DNA from: Candidatus Zhuqueibacterota bacterium | GTDB lineage: Bacteria > SM23-31 | Reading direction: 5' to 3' | Assembly: GCA_022562855.1 (NCBI GenBank) | Contig: JADFON010000127.1 | Location: 1-6,047, forward strand | Length of the DNA stretch: 6,047 nt | In this document: piece after piece, positions 1 through 6,047 of the stretch | Position numbering within the stretch: position 1 is the first letter of the stretch | Layout of the letters: each line of letters begins with the position of its first letter | The notes under the pieces: generated by a model | Seen by the model: only the letters and a program-made list of their open reading frames with translations | Database searches by the model: none | Told to the model about the DNA's origin: nothing | Made by a program: the position numbers and the translations under genes

Positions 1-81
1 CCCGTCAGCAATCCCCAGTTTTGAAAAAAGATCGCTCAGAACTTTTTCGATCGGTTCCGGATTTTCGAATGATGAAGCCAT
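1..81 (-). CDS. DciA-like (DUF721) protein, N-terminal fragment
   Basis: A minus-strand reading frame starts with ATG at 81 and stays open for 27 codons to the window edge. Its ATG shares one base with the recF stop codon (TGATG), which implies translational coupling. The visible peptide begins MASSFENPEPIEKVLSDLF and continues with a short helix ending SKLGIADG. An N-terminal Pro-Ile, hydrophobic helix and Leu-Gly-Ile pattern is typical of the start of DUF721/DciA proteins, which often follow recF and precede gyrB. DciA proteins help load the replicative helicase DnaB. The call rests on a short peptide plus position; the domain body is outside the window. The real reading frame is well supported by the overlap; the family is less sure. 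Confidence 0.6.
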   Translation of the reverse strand, partial: MASSFENPEPIEKVLSDLFSKLGIADG

Positions 82-1214
82 CAGTTTTTCAGTATCTTTC
101 CCCCCGTAACGGTAAAATTAGAAAAATCGGATTTGTCAAAACCGGCATCTTTTAAAATAGTATCATGATTAGTATCGCTGCTCGCGGTGATGAAAAATTG
201 CCGGAATTCCTGTAAAATTCTCAAAAACGCATCTATTCTTGTCCTGTCAAGTAAAGCAAACAAGTCGTCCAGAAGCACGATCGGCTGCATTCCCGCCAGT
301 TCGGCTATATAATGCGCCTCTGCTGCTTTTAGCGCTAAGAGTATTGTCTTTTGCTGCCCCTGAGAACCATACTTCCTGGCGTCATGCCCGTCAAGCTTGA
401 ACCAAAGATCATCGCGATGAGGACCGATCAAAGTTCGTTTTCTACGTCTCTCTTCCTTCCGGGACTGTTCCAACAGGAGCGTGAAATCCTCTTCGATTTG
501 TTCGGCGTCCTGCATTTTTGAGATGTATTCTACCGATAACTCTTCATCGCCCCGGCTTATCCGGGAATACATTTTCCGGCTTAATTCCGACAGGATCTTG
601 ACCGCATCCACCCGCCGTTTGATAATAAACGAACCGTGTTGCACAAGCTTGTCATTCCACGGCTCAATCTCCCCGGACCCTGCGGCGTTATCATAAGGCA
701 TTTTCGACAACAAGCTGTTCCGCTGCCTTACGACCCGTTTATATGCTATCAGGTTTTGCAAGTACTCCCGGTCAACAGTTGATATACAAAGATCGAGAAA
801 CCGCCGCCGCATCCGGGGTTGTCCCTGAGCTATTTCAAGACTCTCAGGGGACATTATCACCATTGGAAATGTGCCGATAAGCGACGACATTTTCGCAACC
901 CGGTCGTCATCGAGCGTGACTTCCTTTCTGCTCCCCTTAACCCAGGATACCTCTAAGCATCTTTCAATATCGGAACCGATTTCAAAGAAGGCTGAGATAT
1001 TAAATCTGTCTGAACCCCACTTCGCCAAATCGGCGCCAGCCATTCCCCTGAAACTGCGAAAAACTGACAGGTAGTAAATCGATTCTAAAAAATTTGTCTT
1101 CCCCTGACCGTTTCCCCCGATAAGCAAATTTCCCTTTTCATTGAATTCCGTTTCGGAATCGCTGCAATTGCGAAAGCTTCTCAACGAAAGCTTTTTTAGA
1201 AACAGGTTTAACAT
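81..1214 (-). CDS. recF: RecF, DNA replication/repair SMC-like ATPase
   Basis: RecF is a cytoplasmic ABC/SMC-type ATPase that binds gapped DNA and, with RecO and RecR, helps RecA load at stalled forks. The 377-residue length is normal for the family. Visible motifs in order: N-terminal LKKLSLRSFRN (6-16), Walker A GGNGQGKTN (33-41; most relatives have GENGQGKTN, and the Glu-to-Gly change keeps the P-loop pattern), the RecF hallmark SPESLEIAQG followed by RRRFLD (122-141), IGPHRDDL (263-270), ABC signature YGSQGQQKT (282-290) and Walker B with D-loop IVLLDDLFALLD (312-323). The ATG at 1214 is chosen because it sits just before the conserved beta strand; no Shine-Dalgarno sequence is visible. 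It lies downstream of dnaN on the same strand but is separated from it by 309 bp containing a terminator, so it probably has its own promoter. The stop overlaps the next gene. Confidence 0.97.
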   Translation of the reverse strand: MLNLFLKKLSLRSFRNCSDSETEFNEKGNLLIGGNGQGKTNFLESIYYLSVFRSFRGMAGADLAKWGSDRFNISAFFEIGSDIERCLEVSWVKGSRKEVTLDDDRVAKMSSLIGTFPMVIMSPESLEIAQGQPRMRRRFLDLCISTVDREYLQNLIAYKRVVRQRNSLLSKMPYDNAAGSGEIEPWNDKLVQHGSFIIKRRVDAVKILSELSRKMYSRISRGDEELSVEYISKMQDAEQIEEDFTLLLEQSRKEERRRKRTLIGPHRDDLWFKLDGHDARKYGSQGQQKTILLALKAAEAHYIAELAGMQPIVLLDDLFALLDRTRIDAFLRILQEFRQFFITASSDTNHDTILKDAGFDKSDFSNFTVTGGKILKN

Positions 1215-1523: not shown

Positions 1524-2645
1524 TTATTCTCTGAGTTTTATCGGCATAACAAGCATGAGAATGTCTTCATCTTCTTTTTGATTCTCCGGAAATACTAACG
1601 CAGGACTTACAGACGTGTCCAGGAGAAACTCCACATTTTCCGAATCAAGATGATTAAGCACGTCCAGTAAATATACAGAATTAAAACCGATCTCCATAGG
1701 ATCGCCCGTATATTCGGCTTCTATCGTCTCCAGCCCTTCACCGCGGTCCATATCCTGCGAAGCGATCGTTACTTTACTTTTCTCTAACGAAATCTTTACT
1801 TGCTGTGTAATCTTATTTGCAAGCACTGAAACCGTACGTAATGCGGATATTAATTGTTCACGGTTAATGAGCAGCTTCTTATCATTGTTAGAGGGGATGA
1901 CCTTATCATAATCCGGGTATTTTCCTTCAATCAACATAGCGTTGATAATGACATTGTCCAGGTCAAAAATCACGTGGTTAGACGCAAATGATACCTTTAC
2001 ATCCCCATCCGACTCTAAATTCTTTTGCAGAAGGTTCAATGCCTTAACAGGAATGATTATATCATCCACCGAATCACCGCCGGTAAATCTTTTATTAATA
2101 ATCTTCACCAACCTGTGCCCGTTTGTCGAAACCATTCTATATTCGTTCTCTTTTACTTGTAACAAAACCCCCATGAGCGACGCCCGCAGTTCGTCAGTCG
2201 AAACCGCAAATAGCGATTTATCAATATGTTCGTGCAGTAATTTCCTGTTAAACGAAATTTCATGTTTCACATCGATTGCCGGAAGCTGTGGAAAATCCTT
2301 TATATCTTCTCCAAAAAACGTATATTGTCCCCTCGAAGATTTCACAAGGATTCTATTGTTATCTACAACACTTATATCTAAGGGAATATCCGGCAGTTCC
2401 CGTACAACATCGAACAGCAGTCTTCCGGAGATAGTTATGTTTCCTTCGCTTTCCGCTCCATCGGGAGAAAGCTTAATTATTGTTTTCAAAGATACTTCGA
2501 GATCTGTTGCGCTTAGCGTAATTTGATTGTCCTTTAGCTCGAACAAAACATGGCTTAATATAGGAAGCGTGGTTTTTGTTGGGATGACATTAATAACCTG
2601 CTGTAAAGCTTTTTTTAAATCGGAGCAACCTATGCTAAACTTCAT
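1524..2645 (-). CDS. dnaN: DNA polymerase III beta subunit (sliding clamp)
   Basis: DnaN forms the dimeric ring that tethers the replicative polymerase and many repair proteins to DNA. The 373-residue length fits the family, which has three repeated clamp domains. Recognisable family segments: TTLPILSHVLFE near 25-36, LSATDLEVSL (44-53), FAVSTDELRASLMGV (146-160), STNGHRL (173-179), EGKYPDYDKVIP (240-251), NSVYLLDVL near residue 320, and the C-terminal MLVMPIKLRE (364-373), which corresponds to the conserved MPxRL-type tail lining the partner-binding pocket. The ATG at 2645 is preceded by a strong Shine-Dalgarno site, supporting this start. The gene faces away from the AT-rich gap, has its own terminator, and lacks an adjacent dnaA. 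Confidence 0.98.
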   Translation of the reverse strand: MKFSIGCSDLKKALQQVINVIPTKTTLPILSHVLFELKDNQITLSATDLEVSLKTIIKLSPDGAESEGNITISGRLLFDVVRELPDIPLDISVVDNNRILVKSSRGQYTFFGEDIKDFPQLPAIDVKHEISFNRKLLHEHIDKSLFAVSTDELRASLMGVLLQVKENEYRMVSTNGHRLVKIINKRFTGGDSVDDIIIPVKALNLLQKNLESDGDVKVSFASNHVIFDLDNVIINAMLIEGKYPDYDKVIPSNNDKKLLINREQLISALRTVSVLANKITQQVKISLEKSKVTIASQDMDRGEGLETIEAEYTGDPMEIGFNSVYLLDVLNHLDSENVEFLLDTSVSPALVFPENQKEDEDILMLVMPIKLRE

Positions 2646-2651
2646 CGAATG

Positions 2652-2658
2652 TCCTCCC
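2652..2658 (-). promoter_or_regulatory. Strong ribosome binding site of dnaN
   Basis: Minus-strand GGGAGGA lies six bases before the dnaN ATG. It fixes the start codon and is the only strong Shine-Dalgarno site in the window; recF and the MBL gene show none. Confidence 0.8.
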
Positions 2659-2703
2659 GGGATAAAATATCTGCACTAAATCGATAGATAATAATGATGG
2701 GTT

Positions 2704-2709
2704 ATTATA
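2704..2709 (-). promoter_or_regulatory. Possible -10 element of dnaN promoter
   Basis: The minus strand carries an exact TATAAT about 60 bp before the dnaN ATG, a sensible distance for a promoter. No convincing -35 box lies 16-18 bases upstream and no TAnnTTTG motif is present, and the sequence is very AT-rich, so this is only a weak candidate. Confidence 0.25.
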
Positions 2710-2815
2710 ACTATGAGAATACTAAATAGAAGTAAGTAAAAGTAGTGAAATCTAACCCTTTTTACAAGAAAAAAAATTCGATGAGAAAGAAGCGACTTTT
2801 TAAAGAAACTATAAA

Positions 2816-2824
2816 GTATCCACA
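2816..2824 (+). promoter_or_regulatory. DnaA-box-like site
   Basis: GTATCCACA differs from the consensus TTATCCACA only at the first base. Its core TATCCAC (2817-2823) is the exact inverted partner of GTGGATA at 2886-2892, so the two sites face each other across the A/T tract. Confidence 0.5.
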
Positions 2825-2832
2825 AATAACAG

Positions 2833-2884
2833 TAATATATAATAATTATATAATTTAAAAGATTATTATTATGTATTATTATAA
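2833..2884. other. A/T tract, candidate duplex unwinding element
   Basis: Fifty of 52 bases are A or T (only G2861 and G2873 interrupt), including a pure 28-bp A/T run at 2833-2860 and then ATT/TAT triplet repeats at 2862-2884. It is bounded by the two inverted DnaA-box-like sites. This is the easiest stretch of the window to melt. The triplet repeats recall DnaA-trio elements, but the spacing to the nearest box and the lack of a GC cluster differ from the described arrangement. Confidence 0.45.
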
Positions 2885-2901
2885 GGTGGATAATTGGATA
2901 A
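2885..2901 (-). promoter_or_regulatory. Two tandem DnaA-box-like sites
   Basis: On the minus strand TTATCCAAT (2901-2893, two mismatches) is followed directly by TTATCCACC (2893-2885, one mismatch), sharing one base. Tandem TTATCCA units immediately beside an A/T tract fit a DnaA assembly site at an unwinding element. Confidence 0.5.
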
Positions 2902-3004
2902 CTTAGATAGTATACAAGTTTTTGTTTTCTTGATATTATTGCTAACGATACTCCACGTTGTACAATAGTTACATAAAACATCAATATGTTTTTATCAAAG
3001 CCAA

Positions 3005-3019
3005 TACCGTCTTACGGTA
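3005..3019. repeat. Short perfect inverted repeat
   Basis: TACCGT (3005-3010) and ACGGTA (3014-3019) are exact inverted copies around CTT. There is no T tract, so it is unlikely to be a terminator. It is the first of several palindromes in the right part of the origin candidate. Confidence 0.5.
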
Positions 3020-3068
3020 AAACTTAGTGATTAATAAGCTGTACATATCTTAATAACCTTATGTTTTA

Positions 3069-3077
3069 TGTGGAAAA
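3069..3077 (-). promoter_or_regulatory. DnaA-box-like site beside a 14-bp palindrome
   Basis: The minus strand reads TTTTCCACA, which matches the relaxed DnaA box consensus TTWTNCACA and differs from TTATCCACA at one base. It directly abuts the perfect palindrome at 3078-3091. Confidence 0.45.
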
Positions 3078-3091
3078 CGAATTCGAATTCG
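3078..3091. repeat. Perfect 14-bp palindrome CGAATTCGAATTCG
   Basis: The 14 bases equal their own reverse complement and include two overlapping-style GAATTC units in tandem (3079-3084, 3085-3090). It sits between a DnaA-box-like site and an A-rich stretch. It may be a dimeric protein site; a second, weaker inverted repeat AATTCA-T-TGAATT follows at 3115-3127. Confidence 0.55.
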
Positions 3092-3231
3092 GGGATGATT
3101 TTAAAAACAAAATTAATTCATTGAATTTGTTAGGTTATTAACCTTGTATTCCTGTTTTGTCACATATTTATCAACCGGTTATTAAGAGTTTAAACGGAGC
3201 GTATTCAAGTAAATTCACCCGGTTTTTCGTC

Positions 3232-3262
3232 TTGACTTTAGACCCTTATACTTGTAATTTAT
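3232..3262 (+). promoter_or_regulatory. Weak promoter candidate for the MBL-permease operon
   Basis: TTGACT (3232-3237) resembles a -35 element. TAATTTAT (3255-3262), 20 bases after the TTG, matches the first six positions of the Bacteroidetes TAnnTTTG element but lacks its last two bases. An alternative TATACTTG at 3247-3254 has one mismatch to that element but no upstream partner. A start near 3269 would give a leader of about 50 nt. Support is weak. Confidence 0.25.
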
Positions 3263-3320
3263 CAGCTTATAAATTTTCATTATGATTTCAGGAATTATCC
3301 TATAACAAATTATCTTTAAT

Positions 3321-4100
3321 ATGCGTTTAACAATACTTGGAAGTGGAAGCGGAGGTAATGCCGCCGTCATTCAAAATAACGGATCGTCAATCCTTGTAGA
3401 TTCCGGTTTTTCGTATAAACTGTTGAACAGTAAATTAAAAATTTGTGGAATTCCGCCGGAGAGTTTCTCTGCTATGCTGATTACACACGAGCATGAAGAT
3501 CATGCTAAGGGGTTAGGCGCATTTTCACGTATTCACCGGGTGCCGGTATATATAAATGAGACAACGTATAAAGGTCTGATGAGAATAACCCGGAAAGATA
3601 TTGATGCGAACGTAAATTTTTTTGAAACCGGGGATGTATTGGATATAAACGGTATTGAGATAAAGAGCTTTCCTGTCCTTCATGACGCTGCGGAGCCTGT
3701 CGGTTTTTCCTTCACTTCAGGAAATAAGAAGATCAGTTATGTTACCGATATAGGTTCTATTACAGAACAGGTTGTCGATAATTTGAAAAATTCTTCTGTG
3801 GCTGTCATAGAGGCAAATCATGATGTTGAAATGTTGTTGAACGGTTTTTACCCTGCGTTTCTCAAAAACCGAATCAAAGGACCGACCGGGCACTTATCGA
3901 ATGATGACGCTCTTAAACTGATTCAATTGATCAGATGTGAAGAGTTGCAAGTGGTATATCTTACCCATCTCAGTAAAAAGAATAACAAACCCGAAGTTGC
4001 CTATAAAAAAATATTTGGTCCGCTTGCCGAAAGCGGCAAACATGTACCTGAAATCAGGATTGCGAACCAGGATGAGGTCTCCGAGCCATACAATTTGTAA
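3321..4100 (+). CDS. Metallo-beta-lactamase-fold hydrolase, WalJ/YycJ type
   Basis: This 259-residue protein starts with the MBL-fold opening strand MRLTILGSGSGGNA and contains a complete metal-binding set: HEHEDH (56-61, the HxHxDH motif), His121 in the VLHDA segment, Asp143 in VTDIG, and His191 or His216 in GHLSN and YLTHLS as the last ligand. The EANHD motif (164-168) together with GHLSN (190-194) is characteristic of the YycJ/WalJ subgroup, single-domain nucleases or phosphodiesterases found in many bacteria; in Firmicutes the gene sits with walKR, and some members act as DNA exonucleases. No signal peptide is present, so it is cytoplasmic. No Shine-Dalgarno is seen; the ATG at 3321 is chosen because the fold starts there at once. 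It lies 23 bp before the permease gene, probably in one operon. Substrate is unknown. Confidence 0.88.
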   Translation: MRLTILGSGSGGNAAVIQNNGSSILVDSGFSYKLLNSKLKICGIPPESFSAMLITHEHEDHAKGLGAFSRIHRVPVYINETTYKGLMRITRKDIDANVNFFETGDVLDINGIEIKSFPVLHDAAEPVGFSFTSGNKKISYVTDIGSITEQVVDNLKNSSVAVIEANHDVEMLLNGFYPAFLKNRIKGPTGHLSNDDALKLIQLIRCEELQVVYLTHLSKKNNKPEVAYKKIFGPLAESGKHVPEIRIANQDEVSEPYNL

Positions 4101-4123: not shown

Positions 4124-5392
4124 ATGGATGATAAAACATTAGTATTGATAATTTTCGTTTTGGTTTACCTTTACCTCGTTATTTTCAGGCATAACCGCGC
4201 CATTGCAGTCTGGGGCGGTATTTTTGTTATTATCATATTTGCAAGTACGGTAAATTTCACCCACGCCGTATCTAAGGTACATTGGAATGTCATCGGAGTC
4301 TTTGCCGGAACATTGATTCTCGCTGAATTCTTTACCCTTTCCAAAGTACCGACATACCTTTCCGATATATTAGTCGGCAATTCGAAGAGCGCCGGTTCGG
4401 CAATGCTGCGCGTTTGTATCATGTCCGGTTTTTTATCTATTTTTATTGAAAACGTCGCGGTGGTTTTAATCGTGGCGCCCATAGCCCTCGAAGTCATAAA
4501 AAAGCTGAAAGTATCCCCGGTTCCTGTTCTCATTGGCATAGCTATAGCGAGCAATCTGCAGGGCACAGCAACGCTTATCGGCGATCCTCCAAGCATGATA
4601 CTTGCCGGTCAGCTAAAAATGAATTTTAACGATTTTTTCTTTTACCAGGGACGTCCGGGTATCTTTTTTGCCGTCGAGGTCAGCGCCCTCGCGTCATTTG
4701 TTGTTCTCTATCTGTTTTTTAAAGGCAATAAAGACCCGGTTGCAAAGGTCGCAAGAGAAGCCGTCGAGAGCTGGATACCCGCTTTGCTGTTATGTTTGAT
4801 GGTAGTTGGTTTAGCCGTCGCCCCGGTTTTCGACCCAGGTTTTCTCTGGTTGAGCGGTACAATCTGTGTCTTGTTTGCAATAGTTGCGATATTCTGGGGA
4901 ATGTCTTTTGATAGAGGGGAAACGGTAAAAACGCTTAAGCGGTACGATTGGGACACCACATTTTTTCTTGCCGGCGTATTTGTACTGGTAGGTTCCTTTG
5001 AAGAAGTCGGATTGATCGTAAGCCTGAAAAATATCCTGAACGATCTCCTCGGAACGAGTCTGCTGATAAGCTTTTTATTCGTAATTATTTTTTCAGTCGT
5101 GATCTCGGCTTTTATCGATAATGTTCCATTTATTACATTAATGATACCGGTTACCTATCAAATGGGACTCGAAGCCGGCGCGGAATATTTGCTGGTCTTC
5201 GGCTTATTGATTGGAACATGCATGGGAGGAAATATAACCCCTGTTGGAGCAGCGGCAAACATAGTCACGGTAGGTCTCTTAAAAAAAGAGGGATATTCTA
5301 TCTCTTTTTGGGAGTTTACAAGAATAGGACTGCCGTACACAATAGTCGCTACAACAGCCGGGGCTGTTTTTATATGGTTTGTCTGGAGCTAA
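4124..5392 (+). CDS. ArsB/NhaD-superfamily anion or ion permease
   Basis: This 422-residue integral membrane protein has about ten to twelve hydrophobic segments and a two-fold internal layout. In the first half ENVAVVLIVAP (109-119) is followed by SNLQGTATLIGDPPSMIL (143-160); in the second half DNVPFITLMIPV (332-343) is followed by MGGNITPVGAAANIV (367-381). Paired Asn-Val hairpins and Gly-Asp-Pro-Pro/Gly-Ala-Ala-Asn-Ile motifs define the ion transporter superfamily that includes ArsB, NhaD, CitM and the P protein (OCA2). The true substrate (arsenite, sodium, citrate, other anion) cannot be read from sequence; no ars regulator or reductase is nearby, which argues against a simple arsenic operon. 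The ATG at 4124 lies 23 bp after the MBL stop; AAGGTGA at 4102-4108 is a possible but distant ribosome site. Confidence 0.9.
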   Translation: MDDKTLVLIIFVLVYLYLVIFRHNRAIAVWGGIFVIIIFASTVNFTHAVSKVHWNVIGVFAGTLILAEFFTLSKVPTYLSDILVGNSKSAGSAMLRVCIMSGFLSIFIENVAVVLIVAPIALEVIKKLKVSPVPVLIGIAIASNLQGTATLIGDPPSMILAGQLKMNFNDFFFYQGRPGIFFAVEVSALASFVVLYLFFKGNKDPVAKVAREAVESWIPALLLCLMVVGLAVAPVFDPGFLWLSGTICVLFAIVAIFWGMSFDRGETVKTLKRYDWDTTFFLAGVFVLVGSFEEVGLIVSLKNILNDLLGTSLLISFLFVIIFSVVISAFIDNVPFITLMIPVTYQMGLEAGAEYLLVFGLLIGTCMGGNITPVGAAANIVTVGLLKKEGYSISFWEFTRIGLPYTIVATTAGAVFIWFVWS

Positions 5393-5667: not shown

Positions 5668-6047
5668 ATGATTATTCGTATCCTGATAATAATATTATCG
5701 GTTGTACTTTTCTTTGTCCGTGATATTTCAAGCGGTGTGGCTTTAGAAAAATACTGGGTGTTTTTTAAGGACAAAGATGCAAGTCTCCTTGCAAAAGCAT
5801 CGCAGGATATTTCGTATCAGCGCTCACTGGTAAGCGACCGCTCTCTGAAAAGGAGGGCAAAACTACTCGGCGATTCCCCGATAACGGAATCGGATATACC
5901 GGTTTCTAAACACTATCTTGAAATTTTGAGTGAATCAGGTCTAAATCCTGTAATAATCTCGCGATGGTTAAATGCCGGCTCATATTATATTGATAATTCG
6001 CAAGTCGAAGAGATAAGGAATCTTCCCTTTGTTGTAAGGGTCGCCAG
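5668..6047 (+). CDS. Secreted subtilisin-like (S8) serine protease, N-terminal part
   Basis: The frame opens at ATG 5668 and runs uninterrupted for 126 codons to the window edge. The first 25 residues look like a signal peptide: MIIR, then a hydrophobic core ILIIILSVVLFFV, then a short polar stretch ending SSGVA before LEKYW. The mature start KYWVFFKDKD, then SDRSLKRRAKLLG (about 65-77), DIPVSKHYLEIL and SRWLNAGSYYID, then IRNLPFVVRV near the edge, is the pro-region pattern seen before S8 catalytic domains in Bacteroidetes, Ignavibacteria and related phyla. There the pro-region folds and inhibits the protease until removed. The catalytic Asp-His-Ser residues would lie past the window. An AAGAAAG stretch 8-14 bases before the ATG is only a weak ribosome site. 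Family is inferred from the pro-region alone. Confidence 0.7.
   Translation, partial: MIIRILIIILSVVLFFVRDISSGVALEKYWVFFKDKDASLLAKASQDISYQRSLVSDRSLKRRAKLLGDSPITESDIPVSKHYLEILSESGLNPVIISRWLNAGSYYIDNSQVEEIRNLPFVVRVA

Follow-up and report, generated by a model that had tools for sequence, protein, structure and literature searches.

The AT-rich gap between dnaN and a divergent MBL-fold metallohydrolase gene may well be a DnaA-responsive control region that survives from the dnaN half of an ancestral dnaA-dnaN origin, as suggested, tentatively, by sequence comparison with related genomes. The gap would act as the shared control region of the dnaN-recF operon on one side and the MBL-transporter operon on the other, having arisen, after dnaA moved off, from the half of the ancestral origin that adjoined dnaN. 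DnaA probably binds the boxes in the gap as a transcription factor, and could tie expression of the clamp (dnaN) to the DnaA-ATP cycle, with origin function presumably lost at the gap or located elsewhere. Since replication forks pass the orthologous gap in a relative (G002), a control region or a retired origin is likelier than a proven chromosome origin.

The locus and its genomic context

The window analysed is the whole 6,047-bp contig (C133), one of 491 contigs in a 2.51-Mb draft genome (G000) that is about 80% complete. It was compared with two genomes of the same family but other genera (G001 and G002) and with three further genomes of the same class (G003, G004 and G005). Among other genome records, a close dnaN was found only in the 'bacterium SM23_31' MAG, the nearest named relative with the locus, whose DnaN is 65% identical. 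The genes of the window are as follows:

81–1214, minus strand: recF (TIGR00611, E 2e-100)
1524–2645, minus strand: dnaN, DNA polymerase III beta clamp (TIGR00663, E 6.5e-90)
3321–4100, plus strand: MBL-fold metallohydrolase (PF12706)
4124–5392, plus strand: CitMHS/ArsB-type ion transporter (PF03600, E 3e-57)
5668–6047, plus strand: N-terminal part, truncated at the end of the contig, of a presumably subtilase-like (S8) gene, 56% identical to its G001 homologue

No NCBIfam model scored above its cut-off for the MBL hydrolase, and a Pfam search with the S8-like fragment returned no match.

Composition of the gap and its DnaA boxes

The gap lies between dnaN-recF on the minus strand and the operon of the MBL hydrolase and CitMHS-type transporter on the plus strand. 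The first-pass annotation had described a noncoding gap from which the genes diverge, with an MBL hydrolase as the neighbour of dnaN across it, and both points hold. Its sole ORF of at least 60 aa, a 102-codon TTG ORF, matched no Pfam or NCBIfam family, and an Rfam search of the gap gave no match. The features recognized within it are listed below.

2646–3320, no strand: AT-rich divergent intergenic region, candidate DnaA-responsive control region or possible oriC (675 bp, 27% GC)
2739–2767, minus strand: predicted dnaN promoter (-35 TTGTAA at 2762–2767, 17 bp, -10 TACTTT at 2739–2744), a conserved block
2816–2824, plus strand: DnaA-box-like GTATCCACA, 1 mismatch from TTATCCACA
2824–2883, no strand: 60-bp stretch with the lowest thermodynamic stability in the contig by nearest-neighbour energies (DUE-like)
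2861–2884, minus strand: TAA/ATA triplet run right after the box pair (DnaA-trio-like), a conserved block
2885–2893, minus strand: DnaA-box-like TTATCCACC, 1 mismatch from TTATCCACA, inside the best-conserved block of the gap
2893–2901, minus strand: TTATCCAAT, a second, weak box with 2 mismatches that overlaps the 2885–2893 box in an 8-bp register
3069–3077, minus strand: DnaA-box-like TTTTCCACA, 1 mismatch from TTATCCACA
3173–3185, minus strand: conserved TTAATAACCGGTT motif near the MBL side (15 of 25 columns identical)

The three near-consensus boxes, correctly placed from the outset, exceed the 0.25 boxes with at most one mismatch expected when the gap sequence is dinucleotide-shuffled (p = 0.004). 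Genome-wide, 698 one-mismatch sites occur in 2.51 Mb, which corresponds to 0.19 per 675 bp. A looser TTWTNCACA ±1 pattern showed no enrichment over the whole window (17 vs 15.5). The strong A/T tract noticed earlier proved to be where the contig is least stable, with the least stable 60-bp stretches beginning at 2821–2836, between the first two boxes. Two properties expected of an oriC, an above-chance cluster of DnaA boxes in non-coding DNA and an AT-rich unwinding element beside them (2824–2883), are found in the gap.

Conservation of the gap in related genera

G000, G001 and G002 share the order MBL / gap / dnaN, with gaps of 783 bp in G001 and 578 bp in G002 (25–26% GC), and gyrB comes next after dnaN-recF in both relatives. 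Near-perfect boxes number two in the G001 gap (p = 0.02) and three in the G002 gap (p = 0.004). Alignment of the three gaps yielded 187 identical columns, whereas 60 shuffled sets averaged 135.5 and peaked at 178. The best-conserved blocks are the box pair with its triplet run, the TTAATAACCGGTT motif, and TTGTAA-N17-TANTTT. In the box-plus-triplet block, 15 of 25 columns are identical (shuffle maximum 13), and the 8-bp register of the box pair at 2885–2901 recurs in G001 and G002. When scored genome by genome, the triplet run reaches significance in G002 (p 0.003) but in neither G000 (p 0.19) nor G001 (p 0.10).

TTGTAA-N17-TANTTT, the likely dnaN promoter, is kept in all three genera, and in G000 and G002 the predicted promoter lies about 50 bp downstream of a DnaA box; the G002 box, TTATCCACG, is comparable to GTATCCACA at 2816–2824. 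A conserved predicted promoter with DnaA boxes nearby, the arrangement expected of a DnaA-regulated promoter, is present in the gap. As a separate observation, a GGTTATTAA/TTAATAACC motif is repeated at 3048–3058, 3132–3141 and 3177–3187; the three copies fall inside 140 bp of gap sequence, and one of them is kept in G001 as TTAATAACCGGTT.

Strand asymmetry and the direction of replication

A GC-skew switch had been proposed as support for an origin in the gap. The local flip is indeed present, but it is a gene-orientation effect, and the strand asymmetry of G000 is near zero; divergent genes create a false local GC-skew switch, which calls for caution at loci of this kind. Raw and third-position GC skew were rejected as evidence because they were mutually discordant and both gene orientation and amino-acid composition confound them, and 2-fold synonymous contrasts were used in their place. 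The contrast, defined as ln G/A at purine-ending codons minus ln C/T at pyrimidine-ending codons over synonymous 2-fold sites, was compared between genes on opposite strands of the same contigs, thereby separating replication from transcription. The strand difference was 0.16 in G000, not distinguishable from 0 (chi2 20.4, 14 df), and 0.12 in G001, without usable signal (chi2 13.6, 13 df); it reached 0.70 in G002 and 1.46 in G004. Replication-strand asymmetry at synonymous sites is therefore near absent in two genomes and strong in two others of the same class.

In G002, the contig carrying dnaN (C242) and the one carrying aspS and, further along, rsmG-mnmG-mnmE-yidC-rpmH (C179) join inside one subtilase-like gene. 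The basis of this join is the single split S8 gene, with residues 12–112 on C242 and 126–684 on C179 as the sole match of such quality, together with synteny (the same gene order) in G001. Along the joined 86 kb, no sign change in asymmetry was found at the orthologous dnaN gap, the place where a switch would be expected of an oriC. On the dnaN side, to the right of the gap, genes pointing away (leading) had a value of +0.59 and genes pointing toward it (lagging) −0.18; on the MBL side, to the left, the relation was reversed, with a difference of −0.75 that 0 of 5,000 permutations reached. A switch placed at the gap had a log-likelihood of −38 relative to no switch, and of −6.3 when computed from the four nearest genes alone. 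The 4-fold sites alone were weak and slightly favoured a switch at the dnaN gap, its advantage over the rpmH gap being under 2 log units, and all third positions combined favoured no switch at the dnaN gap. As the asymmetry shows no sign change, forks in G002 traverse the gap, entering on the MBL side and leaving on the dnaN side, barring a very recent inversion of the entire left arm. The initial claim that the gap is the origin, unproven in G000, is thus contradicted by G002, the one relative that allowed a test.

Location of dnaA and resemblance to known systems

The relocation of dnaA surmised by the first-pass annotation was confirmed. In G000 the gene is found on contig C324, beside a cbiM-like gene, and dnaA and dnaN also occupy separate contigs in G002, G003, G004 and G005, that is, wherever dnaA was found in the class; a search for dnaA in G001 found none. 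The DnaA of G002 retains GGRDHTTVLHA, which we take to be the box-reading motif of the protein. Box pairs or close clusters, some pairs 11 bp apart, occur upstream of dnaA in G000, G002, G004 and G005, as expected under autoregulation. In addition, four boxes or variants at intervals of about 75 bp and in one direction are shared by G004 and G005 upstream of dnaA (L074, L073). The dnaA gap was also considered as an origin and rejected on the evidence of G003 and G004, where dnaA lies on the lagging strand amid one-signed asymmetry.

Regulation by DnaA of dnaA itself and of nrd genes has been described in other bacteria, including E. coli (PMC8203912, PMC11317965). The gap resembles these autoregulated dnaA or dnaA-dnaN and nrd promoters in having boxes upstream of the promoter of a replication gene, and within the family boxes also occur at dnaA, dnaG and an nrd gene. 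It differs from them in that the candidate target is a dnaN split from dnaA and the boxes are single, not double.

A second comparison concerns the oriC of Synechococcus elongatus PCC 7942, located between dnaN and ccbZp with dnaA elsewhere, at 1.1 Mb (PMC3480399, PMC7198777, PMC2275245). Likeness lies in the non-coding gap adjoining dnaN, in DnaA boxes including TTTTCCACA, and in the distant dnaA. However, the cyanobacterial origin has 11 boxes and experimental proof, whereas the gap in G000 has three imperfect boxes and a relative with contrary asymmetry.

The basal unwinding system (BUS) of bacterial origins consists of DnaA-boxes and DnaA-trios (PMC8287927, PMC6669920), and its loose published pattern asks for a box that has three or more NAN triplets no further than 16 bp away (PMC8287927). 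In the gap, one or more boxes are followed directly by at least three NAN triplets in a block conserved in three genera, which fits the loose pattern. Unlike in the BUS, the triplets are ATA/GTA/TAA, mostly 3'-TAT-5' in that register and not the preferred 3'-GAT-5' on the expected strand (as judged from the C. difficile example), the boxes of the pair overlap with an 8-bp register, and significance in any single genome is weak.

Weighing of the alternative explanations

The control-region interpretation draws on boxes above chance in G000, G001 and G002, on a dnaN promoter kept in three genera, and on the missing replichore switch in G002. Boxes upstream of dnaA, dnaG, nrd and rpmH also support it: together with those at dnaN, they look like a DnaA regulon of replication genes. 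Against it count the length of the gap (578–783 bp), which is long for a promoter region, and the box and triplet run beside the least stable DNA, a layout of an unwinding region and not of a promoter. Furthermore, E. coli DnaA favours double boxes, whereas each of the three here stands alone and is imperfect, and the weight of G002 is reduced by its belonging to a different genus in which the origin may have moved. That the gap is instead the working oriC of G000, with dnaA encoded elsewhere as in S. elongatus, is somewhat unlikely. Box-bound DnaA would nucleate a filament on the triplet run and melt 2824–2883, from where forks would leave in both directions. Above-chance boxes in three genera, the box-plus-triplet block coinciding with the least stable DNA, the proximity of dnaN-recF (with gyrB next in G001 and G002) and the cyanobacterial precedent speak for such an origin. 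The orthologous gap in G002 shows no replichore switch, however, and the three boxes are all imperfect, compared with 11 reported in S. elongatus; the triplet-run scores of G000 and G001 are not significant, and dense perfect boxes occur at other loci in relatives. S. elongatus already offers the example of an origin that adjoins dnaN but not dnaA, and a working origin here would add to such cases, bringing a deep uncultured lineage to the few dnaN-adjacent origins without dnaA. DnaA boxes next to dnaN are nevertheless insufficient for calling an origin.

It is improbable that the gap is just a common AT-rich promoter region for divergent genes, whose DnaA-box-like words are chance or functionless, even though the looser box pattern is not enriched, none of the three boxes is perfect, and the roughly 700 one-mismatch sites of the genome would leave a few 675-bp windows with three by chance alone. 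Enrichment in three genera at a locus of a priori interest argues against chance, as do the 187 identical columns, compared with at most 178 in 60 shuffles. Compatible both with a control region and with chance boxes is an origin of the family at the rpmH-rnpA-yidC-mnmE-mnmG-rsmG (parS) end, the other fragment of an ancestral rpmH/oriC/dnaA region; this location is likewise doubtful. Forks in G002 run from the rpmH side toward dnaN, the rpmH gap of that genome contains a pair of perfect boxes separated by 2 bp along with two TTATTAACA, and parS sites lie within 7 kb. On the other hand, no box with at most one mismatch was found upstream of rpmH in G000 or G001, rpmH of G004 is only about 80 bp from its neighbour, and the asymmetry of G002 seems to run on past rpmH (residual sum 36.7 vs 32.5). 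A far more speculative scheme, considered very improbable, is that the ancestral origin of the family was split into dnaA, dnaN and rpmH fragments, several of them retaining boxes, and that G000 and G001 replicate without one fixed start site; this would explain the near-vanished strand asymmetry in the two genomes, and can be likened to the multiple or DnaA-independent origins of some cyanobacteria. With dnaA apart from dnaN across the class, and rpmH apart as well in G002, these genomes form a natural setting in which to ask which of the fragments has retained origin function.

Further DnaA-box and parS sites in the family

The first-pass annotation had named a better box cluster elsewhere as a finding against an origin in the gap, and clusters as good or better do exist upstream of dnaA, dnaG, rpmH and the nrd gene. 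Close box pairs were located by exact searches, and the names dnaG, ribonucleotide reductase, aspS and leuS come from reading the sequences, not from family searches. In G000, two TTTTCCACA boxes 23 bp apart lie upstream of a dnaG-like primase gene (C232, L135, 1570–1601). In G001, three perfect boxes within 34 bp precede a ribonucleotide-reductase-like (nrd) gene (C9, L165, 8077–8110), with an extra box pair inside the neighbouring ORF (7362–7385); this dense cluster was rejected as the true origin on account of its position upstream of the reductase gene.

Conserved tandem boxes 2 bp apart, perfect or near-perfect, are located just beyond the 3' end of leuS in G001 (C234, L166, 4949–4968) and G002 (C242, 15271–15290), in the latter between convergent genes. 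This pair was rejected as an origin, since G002 shows no strand switch there; it could be a titration or reactivation site like datA or DARS.

parS was not found in G000, whose genome is incomplete. Elsewhere, parS sites occur where rsmG, mnmG or both begin, or close by, namely at 6736–6751 in L038, 4696 and 4846 in L040, 3267 and 5172 in C114 of G001, and 22971 and 24902 in C179 of G002. In G004, a parS site lies about 7 kb from the upstream end of dnaN.
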